This document shows positions 35,496 to 51,936 of a stretch of DNA of 64,000 nucleotides, one piece after another. The first letter of the stretch is position 1. The number at the start of each line of letters is the position of its first letter. The notes below the pieces were generated by a model. That model was not told the DNA's origin. It did no database searches and saw only the letters and a program-made list of their open reading frames with translations. The position numbers and the translations under genes are program-made. Source of the stretch: Eutreptiella sp. 'Long Island Sound 2002' (lineage: Eukaryota; Euglenozoa; Euglenophyceae; Eutreptiales; Eutreptiaceae). The DNA lies in NCBI GenBank assembly GCA_964036045.1, contig OZ038392.1, positions 36,965,330 through 37,029,329 of the forward strand, written 5' to 3'.

Positions 35496-35669
35496 GTGTA
35501 CTTAAATTAGGCAAGGGACTCGAGGAGGGCACTCTTTGCCATCGTGTCCGTATTTGTTGTTTGTGTGCCGTTGCCATTGTACTATGTCGAGAGGCTGTTT
35601 GAGTTGAACATCCTCTTATGTCGGGTGCAAAAGGCCATGATTGCCGGTCGACGTCCTCCATGAAGCCCC

Positions 35670-35700
35670 CCCTAGTGACCTAGATTAAAGTCAATATGTT
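35670..35700 (+). repeat. Left terminal inverted repeat (31 bp)
   Basis: Starts CCCTAGTGACCTAGATTAAA and ends CAATATGTT. It is a perfect inverse match to 49,250-49,280. Confidence 0.9.
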
Positions 35701-36040
35701 TAATATTTGGCCAAAAATTAACACGTTAATCTCAAATTTCAATTTTTTTAGGGGGCGTTAGGGGGTTTGCCATGAAAATTATGACCCCCACGGGTTGCCT
35801 TACGGGCTTGGGTGTCATTTTCCCCCGGAGGTTGGTGGGGGGGTCCTACCCATGTGGTTGTTTCAAAATGTTAAAATGGCTCTTGGCTTTAATTTTTGTT
35901 TTTCATTTTTCCATTAATATTTGAAAAGTTAAAAATTAAAGGGCCGCCGGCATTAATATTAATCTCACAAATATTAACTCATTTCCCCAAATATTAACCC
36001 TCCTAACAATGGCACAACGCAACATGGAATGCATCATGTG
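35701..36040. promoter_or_regulatory. AT-rich left subterminal region with repeated motifs
   Basis: Contains TTAATCTCAAATTT (about 35,733) and ATTAATCTCACAAATATT (about 35,965), plus TTAATATT blocks. Similar motifs occur near the right end and in the E6 introns. These are candidate transposase-binding subterminal repeats. No gene here. Confidence 0.45.
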
Positions 36041-36097
36041 TGTGTTTATGTCTCTTGTCCATGGCCATTGTGGCCCCTTGGGTCCCTATCCGGGCCC

Positions 36098-38626
36098 TCA
36101 TACCCCGTGGGACCCCGTAGTGGGGTCCCACATCTTTGCGGGTCCGGATGGGGGGTTAGTGGGGTTAGTGGGGTTAGTTGGGTTAGTGGGTTCGGTGGTA
36201 GGGTTTGCGTTCCGGGGGTCAGGCGTTTCGTTTGTGGGGGTGGGGGGTTTGGTCTTCTTTTGGCCCTCTTTCTTTTGGGCCTCTTCGCGGTGCCGCTCGG
36301 CCTCCTCGGGGGTGGGGAAGAGGAGGGAGCGGTTCACCTCATAGAGGGTGGTGCCGCCCGGGTATTCCACCCAAACGGCACCGTACTTCCGCCCGTGGAT
36401 ACCACGGACGGTGCCCCTCTCTACCCCTTTGGGGTAGGGTACGTGGACGACCGTCCCGATGATCAGATCCTCGGGACGGTCGTCCTTCTTCTCGGCACCC
36501 TTGGGGGTATCCGTCTTGGTGGAGGGGGGGGGGGTTTGTGGTGGCGGTCTTGGGGGGGTTTGGTGGGTTTGAGGGCGGGGACGGCCTTCGTAGGCCGTGC
36601 GGTGGTGGTGGTGGTGGGGGGGGGGTTTCGGCCTTTTGGGCCGGGGGATCGCCCCGTCGTCGCTTTCGTCGGGCGACTCGAAAGAAAACTTTCGTTTCTT
36701 GGGGGCGGGTTGGGGGGGGTTGGGCTTCGCTTGGGGGGGGGGGGGTTTGGGGCGGTGGTGGTGGACGCCTCCCCCCCCCTCCTCCGCCTCGCTCACCCCG
36801 CCCCCACCCATGCTCCCCCACATCTCCTCATCCTCCCCCCCCGCGTACCCCACCTCCTGCATCCGAGCCCACTCCGCGGGCCGGAAGTGGCGCGGCGCCA
36901 CCCATACGCCGCTCACCACGCGCGAAGTCTCCCAATCGTGGAGACCTCGCAAGAGAGCAAGGCCCAAGGGTGGGTCTCGGGCCACGATGCGGTGGAGGGA
37001 CCCCAGGGGTACTTCTTGGGATCCTTCAGCGTCTCGCCAGGCCACCCGGATGGGCCTGGCATTCGTCGCGTTGACAACGACGTCAATAACCTGAAAAAAA
37101 TGGAAAAAAAATTAATTTTTTCGGCGACAATTTTAATTTTTCGACTTTAATATTAACTCTTAACTTTTAATATTTCGACCGGCGGCGCAAAAATTAAATA
37201 TTAATCTCGAGAAATGAAACGTGGCGTTCTAAAAATTAATGCACGCACGCAAAACACATACCTCAAAACTCCCGTTCACTTCGCCTGCCTGAACTGCCCC
37301 CATGGCCTCCCGGAAGAGCGCGGCGGCACTGGGGGCCTCCACAGGGGCCACGGGGGCTCCCGCGCTGGCCATCGGGGCCGCCTGGGCCCCCGGTTTGGCC
37401 GCGGTCGCGGCCGTGGTCGCCGACTTGACGGCGCGGGACTGGGGGACCAAGCCCTCGTACGAGGGCTGGCACCCCGTTCTCCAAGCTACGGCCGGTCTCC
37501 TTGTAGCGGCGGCGGGCCGCCTCCTCACGGTCCAAGGTGCGCCGGGTCTCCACGTTGACCCATGCCGCCGCAACCTTGTCCCACACCCCCATATTGTAAA
37601 TTGAGCCCACCAAGGGCGAGGTGGACACACCGATAAGGCGCCGCACGAACGGTTGGTCTCCCCCGATGACCAACCTGCTTGGCACCCAGGGCGACACCCA
37701 ATGAAACTTCTCGCAGTCTTGTATGGGCTGCAATACCTACAAAAAGGACATGGATTAATATTTACATTAATTTCTCGAGATTAATATTAAGTTGATTTTT
37801 CAGTCGGCGTTAATATTAACCGAAAACAAGATATTAATCTCGAGAAATTAACGCAAAAACGCAAAAATTAACAAACAACGAATGGGCCACAAACCTTCAA
37901 GTTGTCGGCCCATATCGTTGCAAGTGCCGCCATGTCCTTGTCCCCGCATACGGCCATCCCTATCACCCACAAGTACGCGGGTGTGCGGCCCCATGCGCCG
38001 TGGTTGAGGAGCCCAATGGAGAGTTGGGTCCAACTACCACCGGCGCACGGGTACGCATCCCCACGCACAATGAAGGTGAGGGGCCTTGTCCAATCGATGT
38101 TCTCCACTAGCGATGGGCGTGATTGGACGTACCGGGCCCATGAGGGTAGCGGCCAAGAGCGCCCACTCGCGGGGGGATCGGGGACGGACACGGGTGGTTG
38201 TAGGTCAAGGGGGGTGACCAACTCCTTCCACGTGTCCGTGAACGTATCCCGAGTGGGGATGGGGCGGGGGAATGGGAGGCCCGTTGCGGCCGAGTAGGCC
38301 GACCCCCGGCGGCTCATGTACTCCGACACGTGCCGGAAGCCGAGTTTGGGGACGTTCAAGTCCATGAGGAGGCCGATGAGGTCCGGGGCCAGGAAAAGGT
38401 GGGAGGCATATTGCTTCACCGCCTCCACTTGCTTAGTACGAATAAGGGAGGGGTACCCAACCTCCATGGCCTCGGACCATCGGGCCCGGGCCACCCACTC
38501 ACCAAGGAGTTGGGAGACCAAAGGGTCCCACAAACCCTTGGCCCCACTCAAACGCACGAGCGTCATGTTAAGCTCGGTAACGGTGTCCCGAGAGAAAGGC
38601 ATAGCAAGGGCTATACAAGGGAACAT
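36098..38626 (-). CDS. E6: candidate DDE-type transposase, three exons
   Basis: Exons are 38,626-37,895, 37,736-37,262 and 37,090-36,098. The introns (158 and 171 nt) have GT...TTTGTAG and GTATGTG...TTTTCAG borders and keep phase 0. The start is the ATG at 38,626, with another at 38,602. Exon 1 has FIVRGDAYPCAGGSW (Asp codon at 38,059) and exon 2 has RLVIGGDQPFVRRLIGV (Asp codon at 37,658), 80 residues apart. This resembles the first two Asp of an RNase H-fold transposase, and a third acidic residue could follow in DREEAARR. Exon 3 carries a Pro/His-rich linker, KKRKFSFESPDESDD, a small Tudor-like segment (GTVVHVPYPKGVERGTVRGI) and an NPT-repeat tail. Exon 2 is one base too long to read through. 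The break is at a C5 run (37,441-37,445). Function is inferred from the Asp pattern and location. Confidence 0.5.
37091..37261 (-). other. E6 intron 2 (171 nt)
   Basis: The donor GTATGTG follows GGGAGTTTTGAG. The acceptor TTTTTTTCAG precedes GTTATTGACGTC. AT-rich, with ATTAATCTCGAGAAAT on the plus strand at about 37,200. Confidence 0.8.
37737..37894 (-). other. E6 intron 1 (158 nt)
   Basis: The donor GTTTGTGG follows AACTTGAAG. The acceptor TTTTTGTAG precedes GTATTGCAG. It contains two opposed copies of the ATTAATCTCGAGAAATTAA motif (about 37,772 and 37,832). Confidence 0.8.
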
Positions 38627-38734
38627 GGTGGTGTGGAGGGGGGGGGGATGCGGGCAACCGGAGTGGGGGTGTCCAAGACACCCACCAACACATGGTGCTG
38701 GGACGCACAGCATAGAAGGTAAAAAATGGTAGGA

Positions 38735-38792
38735 AAATGCTGAGCATATTGCTCAGGATATTTGGGGATGCTCAGCATTCATGCTCAGCAAA
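38735..38792. promoter_or_regulatory. Cluster of TGCTGAGCA / TGCTCAGCA sites upstream of E6
   Basis: ATGCTGAGCAT (38,737), ATTGCTCAG (38,749), ATGCTCAGCAT (38,768) and ATGCTCAGCA (38,780) form an inverted and direct cluster about 110-170 bp before the E6 ATG. Candidate binding sites for a dimeric regulator or the core promoter region. Confidence 0.35.
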
Positions 38793-38832
38793 TGGGACTC
38801 ATATTGCAGGGTTGATCTCGGAAGTCCCAGCC

Positions 38833-38970
38833 AAAATTTCTTCCGAGCTCCCCCGGCACGGTCGGCTGGGAAGCCCATGGAACATTCCTACCGATATCGG
38901 TTGCGTTTTGGGACCCGATCTGGCTGCCAAAACTTCCGAGCATCTTTCCGAGGGATTTCAAAAACTTCCA
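38833..38970 (-). repeat. 138-bp repeat upstream of E6 (copy 1)
   Basis: Matches 48,807-48,944 in the same orientation with one substitution seen (ATATCGGTTG against ATATCAGTTG). It lies about 200 bp upstream of the E6 start. The other copy is about 430 bp upstream of the E1 start, so it may be a shared 5' regulatory module. Confidence 0.85.
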
Positions 38971-39117
38971 GGCGTTTTTCCATCGGTTTTTTGTACAATG
39001 ACCTACACCGTTCTTGGTTCCCAAATCCCACACCTCAGCAAAGAAACACACAAAAAGACAAGCATGACCGTTCACTTACGCTTGAAATGTGAATGCTCAG
39101 TGGCTTGCCTGTTCATT

Positions 39118-39357
39118 TCAGCTTGAACTGTGAATGCTGTACTCTCCTTCGCTGAGCATCTGCACAGGACAGCCATCGCTTGACATGGCATCCACATCCA
39201 CCACCACACGGCGATACTTCTTGGGTTGAGGTTGGGGTTCAGGGTTGTAACTGGATGATGAGGAAGAATCTGACGCACTTACTGTGGAGGCACCAGATAG
39301 GTGCACAGCATCATCATCCGAATCATTATCCTGAGGACTGCTACTGCTCCCACTATC

Positions 39358-39392
<35 letters not shown>

Positions 39393-41590
39393 TGCTGTTA
39401 CTGCTGCTACTGCCACTGCCACGAGGGCCCACAAGTTGCTGCTCAATGTCGCTATCAACAATGGGTACACGCGCTCACTTCGTACGTCTCATGGGTTGAA
39501 CACGCTGCTGCTCGTTCAAACCTGTAGGACCTTGAAATGAAGCAGCACTGTCCTCGCCCTCCGAAGGGGGTACAATATCAACTGTCTCAGGGTTAGAAAC
39601 TCGGCTTTGAGGGATGGGCCCCACACGTCCCTTACCCTTTCCCTTGTCCTTTAGCGCCTTACGGCGTGCAGCACAGGACTTAAATGTGGCACGGCTCTTC
39701 AAACCCAGTTTGGGCCAGTTGCAGACAGCTTCCCTGTCCAGTGGTACCCATTGACGGACACCACGCTTTGAGCCACAGGTCCCACACACACATACCACAT
39801 CACTCTCGGCATTTGCACCTAGAAAGGCGCATTTCACCGAACGGGTGTCTGGGTGCATATATAGGGAGCAACCACCTCCATCCTGGAAATGCAGCAAATG
39901 CTCTAAGAGGCGTTGGAAGACCACATGCCACACGGCATTGGCAGCAACCATGCACGCCTCCAGAACAACGTTTCGTTGCACGGGCGCCCAAATTTTGGCA
40001 CAGGGGATCTTCTTTTTTTTCTGCACGAACTTCTGATACAGCTCATGCTTCAAACTTTCACTCATACTGGCATCTTGCCCGGTACTAGTGACGGGGGCAT
40101 ATCTCTTGGCCACCCTCAGATCCCGCTCGCCGGCCTCATCGGAATACAGCATGGGTGTCCGTGGATTAACCCATGTGTGGGACCACCCATGCATATATAA
40201 GGTTGCAGTGCAACCTTCTTCAGCAAACTGGGGGATGATGTGCACAATATATGTGTACAACATCCCCATAGCTTGCCATGTGACAGTTGCCAGGTTATTA
40301 CAACCATAGCATAGATGCACCATGTGGCAAAATGCCACCACCAAGGAATGGAAAGGCAGGGGGAGCACCATACCCCCTGCTAGTCTGCCCATGACTGTGC
40401 GGGCCTCGCGACCTGTGAGGCTAATGCCTGCCTGGAATCTACCTCGTACGTGACGCATGTGCTGCCTGCTATCAGGTGGCAGAGATCCAGGATCATACCT
40501 CCTTGCCACATGTGCTATGACCTGGAGTAGGTCATGGTTGTAGGGCGCTGGTAGTGTTCGACCTATGACACCCAGGATCCTGGAGGCTGCTCCAGTTTGC
40601 ACAATATATACCTCTTCCAGGTTAGAAACCCCCTGAAACTTATGGGACCCACGCACACCATTGAGACATCCCCCTTTGTGCAAAAAGAGTTCTCCCGCCC
40701 CATCCTTATTCACCTAGGGACACGCCACACAGCCCTTTTGCCGGCACTCAGACCACAAATGGTGGTGATCGGCAGTGATTGCCCCGAGCCTTATCTGCAG
40801 GGTGGTGTTGTACACTGCACCAGCATACTTCATACGTTGCTTAAATTTACAAGAAGGCAGGGCTTGTAAGGCCTCTGCACGTATGGGTAGCCACTGGCAA
40901 TCACTGACCTTGGGAAGCTCTTGCCAGGTCAACATGTCTGTGCACCTAGGCACATTGCCAGACATTGGGAACCAGTGTCCCTGGAAATCAATTATACTGA
41001 TTTTTGTGTTAATATTTGGACGGCCCCGGGGCTGGTAACCGTCTGCGTAGAGGCCTAAGGTCAGGGTGGCATGGGGTGGTGGGGGTTTCTGCCGGCCTTG
41101 GGCAGCCAATGAGCCACACTTCTGTAGAAGTAGGTGGCACAGCTGTGGTAACAACTTCCTGTTGTCCAGGGAGTAGTCCACTGCAGGAAGATGCAGGTCC
41201 TCCTGTTGCCTTAAAGCAACCATTGACCAACCAACCCCTTGGTTGGAGATGGTCTAAGGTGCGCAAGACAGCGGCTGGCACCACATGCTCATGGCGAAGG
41301 CGAAGTGCAGCAGCCTGGCACTCTGGTGCTTGGGTGACTGATGTGGCCTGTGTGGTAGGCAAAGGGCCAAAGGACCTACGCACAACTATGAAGGTGCCAC
41401 TTGGGGGGCGCTGTAGCTGGTCTAGGTCCTTGGCCTGCAAGGGGGTGGCCGTGGGGAAGTTCATGGCAAAGGCTGACACCATGAATTGATCAGCTGGAAT
41501 AGGGCATATGCTGGCAAATGCCTCCGGCTTGGAGATCTCCCCCTTCACCCATATAGCATGGTTGTTCACAACAAATTCATGGTGAAACAT
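39118..41590 (-). pseudogene. E5: long unrecognised protein, frame broken in three places
   Basis: The ATG at 41,590 starts MFHHEFVVNNHAIWVKGEIS. A frameshift near 41,225-41,245, at a TTGGTTGG repeat, passes the reading into the frame holding GLYADGYQPRGRPN. That frame runs on to 39,118 except for a TAG at 40,714-40,716 and a TGA at 39,475-39,477. The joined product would be about 820 residues. Visible parts: VHIIPQFAEEGC followed by YSDEAGERDLRVAKRYAP, a zinc-ribbon-like CVCGTCGS with later Cys (about 39,790-39,670), a basic GKGKGR segment, and a Ser-rich tail encoded by a CTG/CAG repeat (39,355-39,425). YADG and SDEAGERD could be acidic residues of a second transposase-like fold, but I cannot confirm this. 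A 27-nt GTGAGC...GATAG segment would remove the TGA if it is an intron. Confidence 0.5.
39355..39425. repeat. CTG/CAG microsatellite inside E5
   Basis: An uninterrupted run of nine CTG triplets plus imperfect copies. On the coding (minus) strand it reads AGC/AGT and gives a poly-Ser tract. Confidence 0.85.
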
Positions 41591-41611
41591 GGTGCCTGGG
41601 AAATAGAAGTT

Positions 41612-42385
41612 TGCAGTAGGCCACTGTTTTGGTTGGTTTCAAAGGAACCATGTATGGAAAGCCCCAACCAATACCTTTCACCAGAACCTTTTTTTGCCAG
41701 GATTGCTCCAACCAGTTTCGAGATCCAAGGGTCCAAAGTGTGCTCGACTATCCGCCCCCTCCCTCTGCGCCACTGTTTTGGTTGGTTTCAAGGAAACCAT
41801 GTATGGAAAGCCCCAACCAGTACCTTTCACCAGAACCTTCTTTTGCCAGGATTGCTCCAACCAGTTTCGAGATCCAAGGGTCCAAAGTGTGCTCGACTAT
41901 CCGCCCCCTCACTCTGCGCCACTGTTTTGGTTGGTTTCAAGGAAACCATGTATGGAAAGCCCCAACCAGTACCTTTCACCAGAACCTTCTTTTGCCAGGA
42001 TTGCTCCAACCAGTTTCGAGATCCAAGGGTCCAAAGTGTGCTCGACTATCCGCCCCCTCACTCTGCGCCACTGTTTTGGTTGGTTTCAAGGAAACCATGT
42101 ATGGAAAGCCCCAACCAGTACCTTTCACCAGAACCTTCTTTTGCCAGGATTGCTCCAACCAGTTTCGAGATCCAAGGGTCCAAAGTGTGCTCGACTATCC
42201 GCCCCCTCACTCTGCGCCACTGTTTTGGTTGGTTTCAAGGAAACCATGTATGGAAAGCCCCAACCAGTACCTTTCACCAGAACCTTCTTTTGCCAGGATT
42301 GCTCCAACCAGTTTCGAGATCTAAGGGTCCAAAGTGTGCTCGATTATCCGCCCCCTGCCACAGGCACAACAAGCACAAGCTGGGC
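41612..42385. repeat. 774-bp block of five 149-bp tandem repeats (E4-E5 spacer)
   Basis: The unit period is 149 bp (CCACTGTTTTGGTTGGTTTC at 41,621, 41,770, 41,919, 42,068 and 42,217). It ends CAACAAGCACAAGCTGGGC. An equal-length block lies at 44,408-45,181 (offset 2,796). The unit has no stop in any plus-strand frame, which explains the 230-330-codon plus-strand frames here. I do not treat these as genes. Confidence 0.95.
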
Positions 42386-42407
42386 AGTTCATGGCCGACT
42401 GGCTGGT

Positions 42408-42423
42408 GGTGTTGAAAAACACC
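42408..42423 (-). terminator. Histone-type 3' stem-loop after E4
   Basis: The minus strand reads GGTGTTTTTCAACACCACCA: a 6-bp stem GGTGTT/AACACC, loop TTTC, and 3' flank ACCA. This fits the histone mRNA 3' hairpin form (6-bp stem beginning GG, 4-nt U-rich loop, ACCA flank). It starts 16 nt after the E4 stop. The match includes the loop and the flank, not only the stem. Confidence 0.7.
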
Positions 42424-42439
42424 GTAAAGGTGGACTTCC

Positions 42440-43366
42440 TCAGGCGTTGCCGAAGAGCTGGAAATTGGAACGCTTCGCCGAAGTCTGGAGTCGCTGCGGG
42501 GGGGCTTGCGCAGGGAGCAATGACCCAAACTGGGGCCTCTGCGGTGGGGGGGCGGACTGAGAGGCTCGCCGCCCGAGCAACGAGCCAGACTGCGGGGTGG
42601 GGCACGGCCGCTTTGGGGCGGGAGCCATTGGGAGTAGTGAGGAACGGCGGTGCCTGCTATATTGGGTCAATGTCACCTGATCACTGGCTCGAGGGGGCGG
42701 TGGCCGGCGAGGAACGGGTTGAGGGGGCGGCTTGGGGATAGGAGGGTGTTTTGGGGTAGCACACAGCACTTCAAGCACCACTGCTGCATGCTCCTCGTCC
42801 CTGTTGAGGAAATGCGAACGACTAATTCGCATTCCCTCCTGCCACACCCGCAGGGGGTTTTTCTTCGGCTGCTGAACCGCAAACCGATACATCGCTCGGC
42901 GGTTCAGCACCCCATCAACAAAATACTGTACCCCACCCCCGTGGTTGTCCCGGATGAGCTGCAGTGTTTTGGCACTGTAGGGCCCGTGAACAGTGGGTTT
43001 GGAGGGGGTGGGGGGGTCTTTGGGTACGTACTTGGGGGGTCGTGGGGGGGATGGCGGTGGCACGGCAGTGCACATCAGGGCCTCCTCCACGGCTTCTAGG
43101 GCGACCTGGTATGGGGTTGAGTAGGGTCTGGGCAGAGGACTTGGAGAGGTTGGTGCGCGGCTGGGTGGAGGGGGAGAGGGGGGCGGTGTGGGCAACGGAG
43201 GTTGGGGCGAGGCCAGTTCGCTGAGACACTTCTCAGCGCCAGAGTCCCACGGTGGCGACGCGGGTCGGTCTCCGAACCGCAGGAGCTCCGGCAAATCTCC
43301 CCAGCCGTCCCGGAAGGAAGGGCTGGAGGGGACAGAAGAGGCCACGCTAAGGGGACTAGACGACAT
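42440..43366 (-). CDS. E4: Pro/Ser-rich protein of 308 residues, unknown function
   Basis: The start chosen is the ATG at 43,366 (MSSSPLSVASSVPSSPSFRD). The frame is open upstream to 43,447 but that part is low-complexity Pro/Arg. A Pro-rich first third leads to a more ordered core (SAKTLQLIRDNHGGGVQYFV, then RAMYRFAVQQPKKNPLRVWQ and EEHAAVVLEVLCATP) and a basic/Pro-rich C-terminus ending FQLFGNA and TGA. No intron is needed. The gene sits between a single copy of the 149-bp repeat (upstream) and the five-copy block (downstream), and ends in a histone-type stem-loop. The disordered flanks suggest a nucleic-acid-binding or scaffold role, but this is inference. Confidence 0.6.
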   Translation of the reverse strand: MSSSPLSVASSVPSSPSFRDGWGDLPELLRFGDRPASPPWDSGAEKCLSELASPQPPLPTPPPSPPPPSRAPTSPSPLPRPYSTPYQVALEAVEEALMCTAVPPPSPPRPPKYVPKDPPTPSKPTVHGPYSAKTLQLIRDNHGGGVQYFVDGVLNRRAMYRFAVQQPKKNPLRVWQEGMRISRSHFLNRDEEHAAVVLEVLCATPKHPPIPKPPPQPVPRRPPPPRASDQVTLTQYSRHRRSSLLPMAPAPKRPCPTPQSGSLLGRRASQSAPPPQRPQFGSLLPAQAPPQRLQTSAKRSNFQLFGNA

Positions 43367-43460
43367 GGCGAGCTGAAAAGAGAGGGTCACGGGTGCCAGG
43401 CGCCTACTTGGCGGGAGGGCGGGGGGGTGGGGGGGGCGGGGGAGCACTCAAGGGTTTGGG

Positions 43461-43582
43461 CCAGTACCTTTCACCAGAACCTGTCTTTGCCACGTTTGCT
43501 CCAACCAGTTTCGAGATCTACGGGTCCAAACTGTGCTCGACTATCCGCCCCCTGCCACAGGCACAACAAGCACAAGCTGGGC
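43461..43582. repeat. Single diverged copy of the 149-bp repeat (E3-E4 spacer)
   Basis: 122 bp matching the right part of the 149-bp unit (CCAGTACCTTTCACCAGAAC ... AAGCACAAGCTGGGC), with more substitutions than the copies in the two large blocks. Confidence 0.85.
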
Positions 43583-43614
43583 AGTTCATGGTACCATTCA
43601 TGGCAATTCATGGT

Positions 43615-43630
43615 GGTGTTGAAAAACACC
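43615..43630 (-). terminator. Histone-type 3' stem-loop after E3
   Basis: The minus strand again reads GGTGTTTTTCAACACCACCA, here starting 28 nt after the E3 TAG. The match to the E4 hairpin covers 22 nt. Different sequence follows, so the hairpin is the conserved part between the stop codon and the repeat. Confidence 0.7.
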
Positions 43631-43658
43631 GTTGGGCCCGTGGAGTGGTGGGGGCACA

Positions 43659-44285
43659 CTACAACACAGGCGGAGGGGGTGGAGGGGGTGACGGGGCCCG
43701 GGGATATTGCGCCCACTGCTGTAGGAGGGTCGCCAGGGCCGCACGGGAAGCGGCCCTGACGACTGCCTGCCGCTGAGGGGCTGGGATGTCCCTCCAAAGG
43801 GCTCGACTGACACCCAAGTGGAGGCTGATGACACCTTGTGGGCGATCACCGAGGTCTAGCACCGATATGTTTCCCTCCGCACGTCTCGCCTGAACGTCGT
43901 ACATGTCCTGGGCGAAGACGTCCACAGGGAAGGCTGGGATAGGGGCGGGTGGTGCAGGTGGAACCGGGGGGGGTGCTGCAGGGGCCGGAGCAGGGGCAGG
44001 GGCAGGGGCGGATAGGGCAGAGGAGGAGGCTATCTCTTCGTCCTCGACCTTGACCTTGGGGTCCTTGGCCTCCTTCGGCTCCTCCTTGGGCTCTCTCTTG
44101 AGCCTGACCCTCTTGCCCGGTCCGTCCGCTATTGCTTCTCTTTCCCGCTTCTTGCACCCTTCTTCTCCGGATTCGCGCTTGTCTGACATTAACAGAAACC
44201 TGACAATCAGACAATTTGGAGTTGAAATACCAACCTTTTCGGCGGATGGTCTGCTCAGGCGTTTACACTTGTCCTCAAATGTCAT
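43659..44285 (-). CDS. E3: acidic/basic protein with helical C-terminus, unknown function
   Basis: Open from an ATG at 44,285, with a second ATG at 44,189 (MSDKRESGEEG) that may be the true start. It has a nuclear-localisation-like stretch (KKREREAIADGPGKRVRLKR), a charged KEEPKEAKDPKVKVEDEE segment, an Ala/Pro hinge, then an ordered part (FPVDVFAQDMYDVQARRAEG, LGDRPQGVISLHLGVSRALW, RQAVVRAASRAALATLLQQW). It ends in a Pro run and TAG. No family recognised. The basic motif suggests a nuclear protein. It is followed by a histone-type stem-loop and preceded by the second 774-bp repeat block. Confidence 0.55.
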   Translation of the reverse strand: MTFEDKCKRLSRPSAEKVGISTPNCLIVRFLLMSDKRESGEEGCKKREREAIADGPGKRVRLKREPKEEPKEAKDPKVKVEDEEIASSSALSAPAPAPAPAPAAPPPVPPAPPAPIPAFPVDVFAQDMYDVQARRAEGNISVLDLGDRPQGVISLHLGVSRALWRDIPAPQRQAVVRAASRAALATLLQQWAQYPRAPSPPPPPPPVL

Positions 44286-44407
44286 CAGTGCATGAACAAC
44301 ATTTGCCCTACTGTGATATCGTTTCGTGCTTGCTCTAGTGGTCTGCTACATGTGCTTGCGTTTCGTGTTCGTTCTCTATCTCTCTGAAGGGGTCACACAT
44401 GTCTCCA

Positions 44408-45181
44408 TGCAGTAGGCCACTGTTTTGGTTGGTTTCAAAGGAACCATGTATGGAAAGCCCCAACCAGTACCTTTCACCAGAACCTTCTTTTGCCAGGATT
44501 GCTCCAACCAGTTTCGAGATCCAAGGGTCCAAAGTGTGCTCGGCTATCCGCCCCCGCACTCTGCGCCACTGTTTTGGTTGGTTTCAAGGAAACCATGTAT
44601 GGAAAGCCCCAACCAGTACCTTTCACCAGAACCTTCTTTTGCCAGGATTGCTCCAACCAGTTTCGAGATCCAAGGGTCCAAAGTGTGCTCGACTATCCGC
44701 CCCCTCACTCTGCGCCACTGTTTTGGTTGGTTTCAAGGAAACCATGTATGGAAAGCCCCAACCAGTACCTTTCACCAGAACCTTCTTTTGCCAGGATTGC
44801 TCCAACCAGTTTCGAGATCCAAGGGTCCAAAGTGTGCTCGACTATCCGCCCCCTCACTCTGCGCCACTGTTTTGGTTGGTTTCAAGGAAACCATGTATGG
44901 AAAGCCCCAACCAGTACCTTTCACCAGAACCTTCTTTTGCCAGGATTGCTCCAACCAGTTTCGAGATCCAAGGGTCCAAAGTATGCTCGACTATCCGCCC
45001 CCTCACTCTGCGCCACTGTTTTGGTTGGTTTCAAGGAAACCATGTATGGAAAGCCCCAACCAGTACCTTTCACCAGAACCTTCTTTTGCCAGGATTGCTC
45101 CAACCAGTTTCGAGATCCAAGGGTCCAAAGTGTGCTCGACTATCCGCCCCGTGCCACAGGCACAACAAGCACAAGCTGGGC
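44408..45181. repeat. 774-bp block of five 149-bp tandem repeats (E2-E3 spacer)
   Basis: Same length and register as 41,612-42,385, with few differences (for example GTATGCTCGA near 44,983). It follows the E2 stop by about 85 bp. No hairpin is present on this side. Confidence 0.95.
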
Positions 45182-45266
45182 TGGAAGCATGAATGGATGC
45201 CAACAGGCAGTTCAGGTGCAGCTGCAGTTCATTTCAGTGCCTCGAATGGGAATATATACCTCCCTC

Positions 45267-47268
45267 TCAGTCCTCCCCCTCAGACTGAGGCTCAGGCCGA
45301 GGCTGTGCCTTGTGAGACGCCTCGGCCTTGGTCTCAGGGGGCACAATGAGGAGAATCAACTCCCCTGGCCCGGAATCACCCCCATGGATGAGGGGGAAGG
45401 ACCTCATCCAATTGCGAGGTCGGTGGGCAGACCCCTTCACATAGTCAACGACAGTCCTGACCTGTGTGACTATGCGAAGGGGCAGTGACCCCTGGTCCCC
45501 TGGTCCCCCTCCACTCCAGCCTACATATGGGCTGCGGCTGATCTTCTTCCTCCTCTTACCTGAAGGGGCCCCAGAGTCAGGGGCCGCCCGCCCTCTCTTC
45601 ACGCCTGTGGAGGAAACAGGCACCTTGGAATCTGAGTCAGATGACTCAGGGGCCACCTGCCCTCTCCTCACCCCTGTCGAGGAAATAGGCACGTCTGAGT
45701 CAGATGACTCAGAGTCTGAAACCACCACCTCCTCCTTCCCCTTCCCCTTCCCCCTCCCCTTACCCTTACCCTTCTCCTTCCCCTTCCCCTTACCCACTGC
45801 AATCTCTGGGGCAGAGTCTGAAGAGTCTGAATCACCCCCCCCCTTCCCCTTCCCCTTCCCCTTCCCTTTCCCCTTACCCACAGGAGGGATAGCAGGGCCA
45901 GAGTCAGGGTTCGCGATGCAAAAAAGTACCACAATGGGCACCATGTTGCCGGAGAGGGGGGCAAAGGGGACAGGCCCTTTGCCCCCCCCAACTGGGGCCA
46001 ACTGCCCGGAGACTTCTTTCATCTCCTTCAGGGCCGCAGGGCCCCAGCCAGTGCGGCGGCACTTCCAGCTCCCTTTCACCTGAGCCCATGCCAGGGTTTT
46101 GTCCAGCAACTCCCGGCACTGGCGCCCCCACATGGCAAAATGGCTCAGGGCGGGGGGGGTGTCCCAAACACCCACAAGGTGGCTCATGTGCCACAAAATT
46201 ATTTTAACCGCCACATACATGCAGTTGTGGCGGTTGCAGGAGTCGGGGGCGGTGTGCATCCTCACCGAAACCCCCCTGTCCCTCAACTTCTGGGTGCACG
46301 ACCTTGAAACAGCCGTAGCTGCAAGGTCGTACACCTCCCAACCCCCAGGATGCCCTGCAAAAACCACCCCATGCAGGAGCTCCTCCTGGTGTCCCCCTGT
46401 CACCTCCCATTTCCCAAAGGGGGGGAGGGTGCTGGGGGGCATCTTGGGGAGGGGGGCCTTAAGGAGGCGGCGTTTCTTTGCCTCCTCCCAAGCCCCCCGC
46501 ATCTGCCCCAGCAGATCCTCTGCCCTTCCCTGCTGGGCAGTAGCTGCTGCCCGCAGCTTTCCCTCCCTGCTCTTCACCCCCTGCCCCCCCTGCCTCTTCC
46601 CCCCCACCCCCTCCCGGACAGCCTGCTCAGCCTTCTTGAAGGACTGGCAGGCCTCCTCAAGCTGCCCTCTCAACTTGGAGTACCGATCGGCTGGTGATCG
46701 GTACTCCTTGAGGACCAGTTTCCTCAATTGGTCCGGAACCCCCAACTCCCCACACACTGCCACACTCCGGTCAAAAATGGCCAGGTCCAGAACCACCTTG
46801 GCCACGTTTGGGGGAGCTGCCCAATTGGAGCTTGATGCTCCACTTGCTTGCGGGAGGTCACGGCCCCCCGAGTGACCCACACCACCACCCCCTCCCCCTC
46901 TGGCCCGTAGCGTGCCCCGGCCGCGAACCAGACACCGTCTTCTTACTCAGCTGTGCAAGCACCATCTGGACTTGCACAGCTGCAACAGCCGCCAACAAAG
47001 CTGCGCAGTGGGCAGCCTGCATGCCCTTGGGGTCCTCCGCATCTTCTGCTGCGGCGGCGGGCCCTGCTGCTGCTGCTCCTGCTGCTCCTCCGACTGCTGG
47101 CGCCTCCCACAAAGCGGGGGTGGCTGGCGAAGGGTTGCTGGCACCGGCACTGCTACCGGCGCTGGGGTTCCCACTCCCAAGTCCGGCCAGTCGACCCGAG
47201 GAGATGGGGACGGCGGCAGGAGCTGGTGGCTGGGCGCGGGCAGCCAGGGCAGCAGAGATGGAAGACAT
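45267..47268 (-). CDS. E2: two-exon protein with a Ulp1/C48 protease-like domain
   Basis: Exons are 47,268-46,947 and 46,846-45,267. The 100-nt intron has a strong GTAAGA donor and a GCAAG acceptor and joins the frame exactly (633 residues). Exon 1 is Ala/Pro-rich. Residues about 145-235 are charged and helical, probably a coiled coil. About 259-320 carries H266 (LLHGVVFAGHPGGW), D281 (WEVYDLAA) and C316 (CNRHNCMYVAVKII). The His-Asp-Cys order and the Asn at -4 of the Cys resemble Ulp1-type (C48) cysteine proteases, but the usual Gln at -6 and the Gly after Cys are absent. The C-terminal third is GKGKGKG repeats with Ser/Asp blocks, ending SEGED and TGA. The same fold pattern occurs in E1. 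Protease activity is inferred. Confidence 0.55.
46847..46946 (-). other. E2 intron (100 nt)
   Basis: Donor CTGA|GTAAGA, acceptor CGCAAG|CAAGTGG. It restores a single frame between two regions that otherwise overlap in different frames. Confidence 0.7.
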
Positions 47269-48374
47269 CAGAGCGAAAAAGAGGGCTGATGAAGACCCAA
47301 CACAGTGCATCCCCAGCTTAGGCAGGGGGGGGGGGCTTCTGCGGTCCCAACCTGGCCCTGGCCCTCACCCTTGGCCTGCAACCATGCACCTAAGATGGTA
47401 AGTCGCTGCCGCTTTGGTGCGCCCTCGGAAGAAGGTTTGGGGGCTGGGGCCAAAAGAAACTCAATGCCCCACAAGACACCGTGCGCATGGTACGTGGGTT
47501 GCTGGTCTGTTCTGAAAACCTCACCATCGGGGGGGGTAACCACCTTTTCCCACGTGCCTGAGGGGGCTTGGTCCCACACCCGCCAGCCGTCCTTTTCCCC
47601 GAAAACCTCTACCACATGTGCACCTGTGATGGTGGCTCTGAGGGCGCTGTGAATCGTTGCATGTGGGGACTCGCAGAAGGCATCGTTTATGATAACCCTC
47701 AAAACCTCGAACGGAACATGAATAAATGACAGGGGGGGGAACTGCACGTTGCAGGTAACTACTTTTTTGGACCGCTTCTTGATCTTGGCCTCTTTGAACC
47801 AAGTAACTACATCGCTCTGGGTCCACTTTAACTCGCGAATGGTACTGTCCGGGTGTGTGGACAGTATTGATTTCAAGTACATGTAATGTACACGCAGCCT
47901 CTCTTCAGATTCCTCTGCAAAGGTCCGGTCCGTGTTGTATTTCGGATCCGGACCAACAATGCAGAGGTTTCTGTATTGTACACCGTACGAAGTCTCATGT
48001 TTGCTGGGGCTTGTCTTGCCCACAGCCTCCCGTGTCGTCAAGACAGGGATTGAAAAATGCTTATGCATAAGCACAGCCAGCAAGGTATCCTTCGGCTGGA
48101 TGCGGTATGCATCAGAGACGACCCTGTCTAAAAAAACCCTTAGCATTCTGGGTTCAATGGTCTCTGACGGCTTATGCCGCAGGCACAGTGCTGCTAGGGC
48201 GTGTTGGAGGCGCGATTGTGTATCACCCGGTTCGGGAACTTCGGTATTGGCTGTGTCCGCGTCAATGAGCTCGCCCTCAAGCTCCAAATCTGGTTCCGGG
48301 AGCTGCTGAACGGGCTAGGGGGGCTGAGCGGACGAAGACGAGGCACTAGCGGCACTGCCTTGACTACCAGACAT
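47268..48374 (-). CDS. E1: protein with a degenerate protease-like domain; in-frame TAG at codon 20
   Basis: The only good ATG is at 48,374 (MSGSQGSAASASSSSAQPP). Codon 20 is TAG (48,317-48,315), after which the frame is open to 47,268. The body has ordered sequence (FLDRVVSDAYRIQPKDTLLA, VHYMYLKSILSTHPD, KIKKRSKKVVTC). The C-terminal part has GAHVVEVFGEKDGWRVWDQ and later QQPTYHAHGVLWGIEFLLA. Aligned with E2, His and Asp are 15 residues apart in both. E1 keeps the Gln (-6) and Gly (+1) of a C48 site but has His where Cys is expected, so it may be an inactive paralogue. The tail runs through a C11 tract (47,325-47,335). A one-base change there would fuse E1 to E2. As written, the E1 TGA overlaps the E2 ATG (TGATG). 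Confidence 0.5.
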
Positions 48375-48519
48375 GTCTGTTGCAGGTGACAAAAAGTGTT
48401 CTGAGCACAAAAAGGGAATACATTAGTGAGTCTACTCAAAGGGGCCTAGGTGAGAAAGCGACACACATGCAAAAAGAAAACCACAAAAGCAGGCACAAAG
48501 CATCACAAGGCACAAACGG

Positions 48520-48775
48520 CAAACATTCATAAGCTTGAGTACAGTGTTCTCGATGCAAGTTTGTAGGCAAAGCAGCCACCAAGGATCAAACTGGCGTTGC
48601 ACATGTCAAAAGCAAAAGTCCAAATTCACAAAGGAGCACAAAGGGGAAGCAATCATAAGCTTGAGCACAGTGTTCTCCATGCAGCTTTGTAGGCAAAGCA
48701 GACAAAGGGTAGACAAACATTAGCTTCAACGTGCTGTTCTCCATGGCATCTTGCAGGCAAGGTAGGCACCAAGCA
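48520..48775. repeat. Three imperfect repeats upstream of E1
   Basis: Copies at about 48,523, 48,648 and 48,713 share CATAAGCTTGAG.ACAGTGTTCT or CATTAGCTTCAACGTGCTGT, then TCCATG and TTGTAGGCAAAGCAG. They lie between the E1 start and the 138-bp repeat. They may be regulatory or just tandem decay. Confidence 0.55.
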
Positions 48776-48806
48776 TCCAACCAAAATTCCACTGGGTTAG
48801 GGCTGA

Positions 48807-48944
48807 AAAATTTCTTCCGAGCTCCCCCGGCACGGTCGGCTGGGAAGCCCATGGAACATTCCTACCGATATCAGTTGCGTTTTGGGACCCGATCTGGCTG
48901 CCAAAACTTCCGAGCATCTTTCCGAGGGATTTCAAAAACTTCCA
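48807..48944 (-). repeat. 138-bp repeat upstream of E1 (copy 2)
   Basis: Pairs with 38,833-38,970, same orientation, nearly identical. Both copies lie 5' of a minus-strand gene. Confidence 0.85.
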
Positions 48945-49179
48945 AGCAACGGACCGAAGCATATCGCATGCACGTCGGTACAGATTTCCCAAAATTGCCA
49001 CCGGTAACGGGACAACATTGGTCTCTCTTCCAATGTTCTATGCTGGGCACCGGTGGTACATGTGACACAACATCGGAACCTCTCTACTACACCGTTGTGC
49101 AACAATATACCACGTAACACCCCTTATAGGTCCGCATATGTGCATGGAAAAATGGGTACAAATGGCCCGATCGCAAAAA

Positions 49180-49249
49180 TTTGACTTTAACCTCTTAATA
49201 TTTGCGAGATTAATATATTAACGCCTTCATAGATTAAAAATTAAAAATT
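49180..49249. promoter_or_regulatory. AT-rich right subterminal region
   Basis: Contains TTAATATTTGCGAGATTAAT and ATTAAAAATTAAAAATTAAC just inside the right TIR. It is similar in composition and motif (inverse of ATTAATCTCGCAAATATTAA) to the left subterminal region. Confidence 0.45.
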
Positions 49250-49280
49250 AACATATTGACTTTAATCTAGGTCACTAGGG
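49250..49280 (-). repeat. Right terminal inverted repeat (31 bp)
   Basis: The reverse complement is identical to 35,670-35,700. It is followed by CCCC, as the left TIR is preceded by CCCC. Confidence 0.9.
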
Positions 49281-49284
49281 CCCC

Positions 49285-50340: not shown

Positions 50341-51936
50341 TCACTCTGCCCAATCTGACCCTTGTTCAAACCCCACTGAGCACAAACTTTTGAGCACAAA
50401 ATTCTGAGCACAAACTTTTGACCCCCTGTTCCGTCTGGTTGTTGTTTCTTTACGGGGCCCTGGACGGTCACCCGTTCTTCCCTTCGCATGTTGCGTCGGG
50501 TCGCTGCTTTTTGTCGGCCGCTGCGGCCGGTGCTCTTGCTGGTGTCGTTTCCGCGTTCGCAGAGCCCAGTAGTTGGTGTGTTGGGACTGTGCCGAATGTG
50601 GCACGGTGTGCCGTTTGCGCGTCACCGGCACCCAATAATGGGGGTATTGAGGATGTGCTGGTTGTTGCCGGGGTCGTTTGACTGTTTTTGCTGTCCACAC
50701 ACCTCTGTCCACAGGCCGGCCATAGCCTGCCTCGCTGGGTTTCTGTGCGGCCCAGGTGCCCTGTTCCTCCACGCGTTGTCCGGGCCGTCCACCATATGTC
50801 CTGCTCCCCCTCACGGTTGGTCTGCCCCTGATGGGCTCCCGCTCCTGTTGCGCAAACAGCCCATCTGGGCTGCGGGAGACACCCCCCACCTGATGCCGGT
50901 TGAGCACGGGTTGCCCTGGCACCCGGTGGCGACGGGGCTGGCTGGCCAAGCCATCCCCTTTATTGTCGCTGCCTCCCATGCGCGCGCTCCACCATTCGCT
51001 CCATTCTGGTTCATTGTTCCCGCCGTTCTGGTAGCCTCTCCTGCCTTGCTTTGCCCCTCCTCCTTGTCCGGTGTGCCCGCCCTTGTCCCCCTTGGTGTGG
51101 TTCCCGCGTTGTGTGTGTCTGTGTTGCTCCTCCCCCTGTCTGGTGGCGCTGCTGGGTGCCCATGTCGCGCACCCCCTCCTGTTCCACCCGCCTGCCCCCC
51201 CGCGTACAAGGATTTCACATCTCCGTACCACGTGGACTGTCCCATACGCGGTTGGCTGTTCACGGCCCTGTTGCCACCCCCGTGGCGGGCACCTCCGGGC
51301 GCGCAGGGCGCAGCCCCCGCCCTTGTGGAGTACGTGGGCACCTTGTAGAGGGGGGCGGGGTGTTTGCTGATGGCTCGCTCGGCATGCGCTGCATTTGGTG
51401 GTTGCTGCAGCGCTTGCACCTCATGGTTCCCTTGTGTCTTGTTGTGTGTCCTGCTGGGGCTCGTCCCACTGCCGTGTGTAGAGCGGCCCTGTGCCCAGCT
51501 GTTTTGCTGCATGTGTTCCTCCCAGTTTCGGGCTCTTTCTGTTTCTGCTGGCATGCTCACTGCTTCTGGTGTGCGGCGCCGGGGGGGGGTAGCATGTCGC
51601 TCCGTGCATCCCATTGTGGCTGTCGGGTTGTCCCACTCGCAGTTGGGTGGTGCCAGGGGCACCGGGCACTTTTGCACATGTTTCCAAATCTACAAACTAA
51701 CCTGTCACTGGTGTTTGTTGGGTTTGTTGTGGGGTGAATGTGTTGCGTTGTTGCTCTTTTGCTTTCTGGGCTGCGGAGGGGCTCCCCGTTTGAGGACTTC
51801 ACTCCGGGCTGTCCATGCCTCGGAGCTAGGGACTCGTGTGAGTCCACCCCCTGATTGGTCGTGTGCAGTGACCACCAATGGTTTGGACGCTGTGTCTCAT
51901 AAGCGTGCCCAAGGCCCCTGCACTAGGCCCTGGTGA
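50341..51936. other. GC-rich stretch with overlapping long open frames on both strands
   Basis: Frames of 296 codons (51,231-50,341, minus), 288 codons (51,677-50,811, minus) and 286 codons (50,488-51,348, plus) overlap. The minus products are Arg/Gly/Gln/Thr-rich and the plus product is Leu/Pro/Cys-rich, with no recognisable domain. The minus frame has a local repeat (YWVPVTRKRH and YWALRTRKRH). GC bias alone could hold these frames open. I do not choose a gene. Confidence 0.3.

Follow-up and report, generated by a model that had tools for sequence, protein, structure and literature searches.

The CMCT clade of transposons is described as comprising EnSpm/CACTA, Mirage, Chapaev, Transib, Plavaka, ESTA and Lanisha, and its hallmarks are given as a DDE triad with C(2)C and H(3-4)H motifs between the second D and the last E, termini that are mostly 5'-CA..TG-3', and target duplications of 2-5 bp (PMC12730594). 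For Transib and RAGL elements the duplication is reported as 5 bp or nearly always so, and the RAG signal as a heptamer, a 12- or 23-bp spacer and a nonamer (PMC8355894, PMC7204232). We examined a stretch of 64,000 nucleotides (the window) from Eutreptiella sp. 'Long Island Sound 2002' (contig OZ038392.1), in which positions 35670-49280 hold two cut-and-paste transposons, one nested within the other, each with its own ends, genomic copies and length of target duplication. It is very probable that this arrangement represents a 10.4-kb RAG1/Transib-like element with a 1-bp duplication, nested in a broken outer element of ~5 kb with a 2-bp duplication (Table 1).

The nested transposase carries the signature D-D-C(2)C-H(3)H-E in an alignment of 38 of 75 homologues, as the CMCT clade requires, and the termini of its element, CACATG...CATGTG, follow the 5'-CA..TG-3' rule of that clade. 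The element works like a CMCT member, as a variant; because its duplication is 1 bp, against the reported 2-5 bp, we stop short of calling it an ordinary one. In fold searches, which covered the families listed by the fold tools, the best matches of both transposases were chains of Transib or of RAG1, the recombinase of antibody genes. For the nested protein these occupy ranks 1-9, with low model confidence and TM-scores, and E483 falls opposite residue 960 of 4wwx_B, near RAG1 E962; for the outer protein they occupy ranks 1-20 with a weaker match, and E243 falls opposite residue 960 of 6cik_A, again near E962. The outer element shares a RAG1-like model with the CMCT clade, and its 2-bp duplication falls in the clade's range of 2-5 bp; it differs in that its termini are CCC..GGG and that after the GGDQPF motif no C(2)C was seen in the outer sequences read. 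An alternative is that both transposases come from a different DDE superfamily whose members have a helical insertion (hAT- or P-like), and not from the RAG1/Transib/CMC side. We consider this unlikely, given the unbroken run of RAG1/Transib chains at the top ranks, model alignments that end near E962, and duplications of 1 and 2 bp where hAT and P elements make 8 bp.

In agreement with the earlier note on this DNA, which knew no class that fitted, Pfam and NCBIfam gave no sequence match to a named family. Pfam returned 0 matches among 38 members of the nested-transposase family at E-values up to 1 and no transposase family match for either element, NCBIfam gave no match, Rfam gave none within the window, and when PDB sequences were searched with profiles of the two transposase alignments, nothing relevant emerged. 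The outer inverted repeats start with CCCTAG, which we take to resemble piggyBac, but the duplicated dinucleotide is variable rather than TTAA, and Pfam yields no transposase match there either. In contrast to the RAG system, the window frames scanned with Pfam yielded no RAG2-like (Kelch) domain. Zisupton and other KDZ DNA transposons are recorded in algae (PMC8226300), but the duplications of the outer and nested elements differ from the 8 bp given for Zisupton (PMC12730594), and the Pfam searches gave no match.

Each nested end is bipartite, with CACATG followed by an unconserved 12-bp spacer and a conserved 10-bp box. The left end, CACATGG-TGCTGGGACGCA-CAGCATAGAA, and the right end, CACATGT-ACCACCGGTGCC-CAGCATAGAA, agree at 6 of 7, 4 of 12 and 10 of 10 positions in the three parts. 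The CAC-type heptamer is shared with Transib and RAGL elements, and the spacer makes the ends resemble a 12-bp-spaced recombination signal sequence (12-RSS); however, the second box is not A-rich, unlike the nonamer, and both spacers are 12 bp. We searched the genome (2.28 Gb, 2205 contigs) for CACATG, then A or C, any 4-24 bases and CAGCATAGAA, and found 17 places, five of which are composites that include the common left end. The spacer is exactly 12 bp in 11 of the 12 non-composite places, and one place has 22 bases in all; since several of these places are copies of the known left and right ends that have diverged, the search lends the spacing moderate support. The two conserved boxes would be the sites bound by the nested transposase.

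The nested element is a young, high-copy transposon. A first look gave 1663 left and 1570 right end candidates, of which 40 on each side were scored: the best 40 of the 1663 left ends match over 408 bp at 100% after rounding, and the best 40 of the 1570 right ends over 315 bp at 96-100%. As these are best matches, the identities show recent activity and not average age. Pattern counts came to 582 left ends (at most 1 mismatch) and 667 right ends (at most 2 mismatches). One copy (L052, C11 58.05 Mb) adjoins TTAGGG-like repeats.

We paired nested ends by position and read 23 pairs (19 pairs, the window copy, and L038/L064, L032/L069 and L071/L070). The left end is CACA in 21 of the 23 and the right end TG in 22. 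The base 5' of the left end is identical to the base 3' of the right end in all 23 pairs, indicating a 1-bp duplication, and it matches even in the pair at C3:30.5 Mb, whose right end is mutated. Agreement over 2 bp occurs in 2/23 of the same pairs and over 5 bp in 0/23, in contrast to the 5 bp of Transib and RAGL elements. Exactly one base is confirmed by each of three empty sites of nested-family copies, one of them the site of the window copy itself; that at window position 50524, for the copy at C1:143.13 Mb, fits only when one base is removed (1 mismatch), as does that in a 149-bp array for the copy at C1:183.46 Mb (0 mismatches). The site at 50524 lies in a GC-rich stretch of another repeat (window ~50480-51740), whose C1:143.13-Mb relative is interrupted by the nested-family copy. 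Two other ways of dividing the sequence were ruled out: a 5-bp duplication ACACA, as other copies fit only 1 bp, and CACA as part of the target, as it is conserved before TGG in 28 of 30 left ends.

The single base might reflect no real stagger, being the product of a blunt insertion, of a longer stagger later trimmed, or a base of a variable end; one base is a short match, and there is an excess of T among the duplicates (T11 G5 A5 C2), which is why cross pairs of left and right ends already agree in 30%. We regard this as highly improbable. Own pairs agree without exception against 152 of 506 cross pairs, the empty sites fit the removal of one base and not of 0, 2 or 3, all four bases occur as the duplicate, and the bias in target sequence is centred symmetrically on it. 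This bias is a weak palindrome, C-A-N-T-G, centred on the duplicated base, with C at -3 in 13/23 pairs (25/47 distinct left flanks) and G at the mirror position in 13/23. By analogy with how other transposons work, the 1-bp duplication would reflect a 1-bp stagger.

We know of no DNA transposon with a 1-bp duplication. The literature searched by wording, with most subscription journals and Repbase outside it, yielded no report of one (the single match concerned LINE-1), and no paper joining Euglena and EnSpm with transposon or Euglena and RAG1 with transposase. Either family may already be named in Repbase or in subscription journals, and a 1-bp duplication in a CMCT-like transposon would be new unless reported beyond the papers searched. 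We give even odds that the nested element, resident in a photosynthetic protist, founds a RAG1-fold lineage that joins its two ends to the target one base apart and recognises split ends of RSS type (CACATG, 12 bp, CAGCATAGAA; 12/12).

The nesting itself emerges from nine full-size outer copies of ~5 kb (L009, L010, L011, L013, L015, L016, L017, L022 and L023) aligned to the window by blastn. These copies match window positions 35670-37476, then hold 1.6-1.9 kb absent from the window copy, and beyond it match 37472-38692 fused directly to 49065-49280; the window copy has therefore lost an internal segment at 37472-37476 and gained one at 38689-49064. When the window flanks of this insertion are joined minus one base, they show 1-4 mismatches in 40 to each of the 12 outer copies tested, whereas removal of 0, 2 or 3 bases gives at least 12 mismatches. 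All 12 relatives are uninterrupted where the window copy holds 10,376 extra bp. The earlier note had read 35670-49280 as a single 13.6-kb multi-gene element, perhaps of a new large transposon lineage with accessory genes; as 38689-49064 is a separate insertion, it is not one element, and what survives of that reading is that the terminal inverted repeats (TIRs) are real and bound a DNA transposon; the accessory genes belong to the nested transposon. The one-strand coding that the note also described is true of the frames with protein homologues, which are on the minus strand; long open frames are present on the plus strand as well. The whole interval as one large transposon with captured accessory genes, now mobile as a unit between its 31-bp ends, can hardly be upheld: those ends are intact with CC on either side, so the composite is in principle movable by a transposase from elsewhere, but the exact site is uninterrupted in all outer copies tested, the inner ends abound elsewhere in the genome, the alignments did not show the same inner insert in the 19.1-kb outer pair L026/L027, and as an account of the origin of the interval this reading is already contradicted.

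The outer element, a DNA transposon, is ~5 kb long and has 31-bp ends of the CCCTAGTGACC type. Several features noted earlier are borne out: the two arms are exact inverse copies (0 matches in 100 shuffles), CCCC flanks both sides of the window copy, and the subterminal DNA is AT-rich (GC 38.3% in the first 350 bases of 35670-49280 and 36.1% in the last 216, against 55.5% for the whole window). Genome-wide, the arm has 265 forward and 248 reverse matches with at most 3 mismatches, 513 in all, and a reversed-pattern control gave 0. Positions were listed for the first 100 places, and the paired copies that the earlier note proposed to look for are numerous, with at least 21 inward-facing pairs no more than 20 kb apart among the matches listed.

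We examined 18 of these 21 pairs (20 stretches). The same dinucleotide stands on each side in 17 of 19 rows (the 18 fetched pairs and the window), the exceptions being L013 and L024/25. Counted as independent insertions, 13 of 14 have a 2-bp duplication (CC, CA, TG, AT, AG, AC or AA); here L018-L021 and L028 count as one, as they have a common flank pair, direct or inverted, and L024/L025 was dropped because its mirrored flanks mark an inverted duplication. Left and right flanks from different rows agree at 2 bp in 49 of 342 comparisons, a figure raised by the shared flanks of the C7 rows. The CCCC of the window copy is thus a 2-bp duplication within C-rich DNA and not the 4-bp duplication first suggested. 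As for the empty sites that the earlier note proposed to compare, a genome search with the joined flanks of the outer window insertion returned only the window's own two flanks and no uninterrupted target.

Some outer copies are unusual. The five that share flanks lie at C7 12.59-15.45 Mb, where three further arm pairs fall in the same 3-Mb stretch, and they reflect segmental duplication, or else a repeat of very large size, rather than independent insertions. At L024/L025 (C1 109.21-109.23 Mb), 19.2 kb separates two arms with mirrored flanks, pointing to a large inverted duplication. The copy at L026/L027 (C5 116.927-116.946 Mb) has a 2-bp duplication and measures 19.1 kb, far above the usual 5 kb; it may contain inserts too.

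The 1.6-1.9 kb lost from the window outer copy takes in the predicted catalytic glutamate. In the simplest account, the two DDE transposases have a RAG1 fold but come from separate lineages, the outer one making a 2-bp and the nested one a 1-bp stagger, and the second element has hit the first. The outer element would have inserted with a 2-bp stagger; its window copy, having lost this segment, could move only through the transposase of another copy. The 10.4-kb element then entered it upstream of the first outer transposase exon: its RAG1/Transib-fold transposase would bind the bipartite ends, cut at CAC and join both 3' ends to a weak-CANTG target one base apart, with gap repair leaving the 1-bp duplication. 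Catalysis and the role of the accessory frames are inferred.

Duplication length reflects the spatial arrangement of the strand-transfer complex, and it is used in distinguishing transposon superfamilies. If a RAG1-like enzyme does make a 1-bp duplication, the range reported for the clade becomes wider, and structural work gains a naturally occurring variant of target capture by RAG/Transib. Should the nested lineage prove to be as proposed, RSS-type end design exists, by descent or convergence, outside the animal Transib/RAG line, and the split, 12-bp-spaced ends make a repeated origin of heptamer-spacer-box recognition testable. Annotation criteria that demand longer duplications would miss 1-bp elements; one RAGL study, for instance, required 3-8 bp (PMC7204232).

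Table 1 Features of the outer and nested transposons in the window.
Feature	Position	Strand	Evidence or remark
Left 2-bp target duplication, outer transposon	35668..35669	.	CC within CCCC
Left 31-bp TIR, outer transposon	35670..35700	+	exact inverse match; 513 genome matches
Outer transposon, left part	35670..38688	.	blastn to 5.1-kb copies
Internal-deletion junction	37472..37476	.	window pieces overlap by 5 bp; full-size copies hold 1.6-1.9 kb more
Outer transposase exon 2 start, GGDQPF motif	37477..37736	-	deletion cuts before predicted catalytic E
Outer transposase exon 1, GDAYP motif	37895..38602	-	ATG at 38602, ends at AAG|GTTTGT; homology to L010 frame and P0197
Left 1-bp target duplication (A), nested transposon	38688..38688	.	
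Nested transposon, 10,376 bp	38689..49064	.	ends CACATG...CATGTG
Nested left end	38689..38717	+	CACATGG, 12-bp spacer, CAGCATAGAA
Subterminal 141-bp direct repeat, nested transposon, copy 1	38833..38973	.	
RAG1/Transib-fold transposase gene, nested transposon	39121..41590	-	several open pieces in window copy
149-bp tandem array, 4.9 copies	41620..42356	.	nested-family copy at C1:183.46 Mb lies inside such a unit
Accessory open frame, nested transposon	42443..43372	-	no Pfam match
Accessory open frame, nested transposon	43662..44194	-	no Pfam match
Second 149-bp tandem array, 4.9 copies	44416..45150	.	
Accessory frames (45270-46946, 46861-47310), perhaps a single gene	45270..47310	-	no Pfam match
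Accessory open frame, one in-frame stop near start	47271..48374	-	no Pfam match
Subterminal 141-bp direct repeat, nested transposon, copy 2	48807..48947	.	99% identical
Nested right end	49036..49064	-	CACATGT, 12-bp spacer, CAGCATAGAA
Right 1-bp target duplication (A), nested transposon	49065..49065	.	
Outer transposon, right part	49066..49280	.	alignment to outer copies; 49065 is the duplicated base
Right 31-bp TIR, outer transposon	49250..49280	-	exact inverse match
Right 2-bp target duplication, outer transposon	49281..49282	.	CC within CCCC

Two further identities were considered and rejected. For a provirus or Polinton-like element, ten window frames gave no Pfam match above the curated cut-off, the few weak matches including viral families far below it, and a retroelement is at odds with the subterminal position of the 141-bp direct repeat, the inverted CACATG ends and the 1-bp duplication. 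In the outer element, an open frame on the minus strand (36098-37045) has the conserved stretch VVHVPYPKGV...GAVWVEYPG, with a similar one in P0236, and is perhaps a later exon or a second protein.

Just left of the outer element, the window holds a 28.3-kb tandem array (5485-33780) of a 46-bp unit in ~615 copies. Elsewhere in the genome, light-harvesting units are repeated in very long open frames of up to 6122 residues (C23 19.07 Mb, C9 43.68 Mb, C5 109.28 Mb), and such polyproteins in a genome of this size would suggest a Euglena-like host; the unit tested had as its best PDB chain 9vfj_2 (LHCI-2, 620 residues), at 434 bits in two stretches, followed by the next chain at 296 bits.

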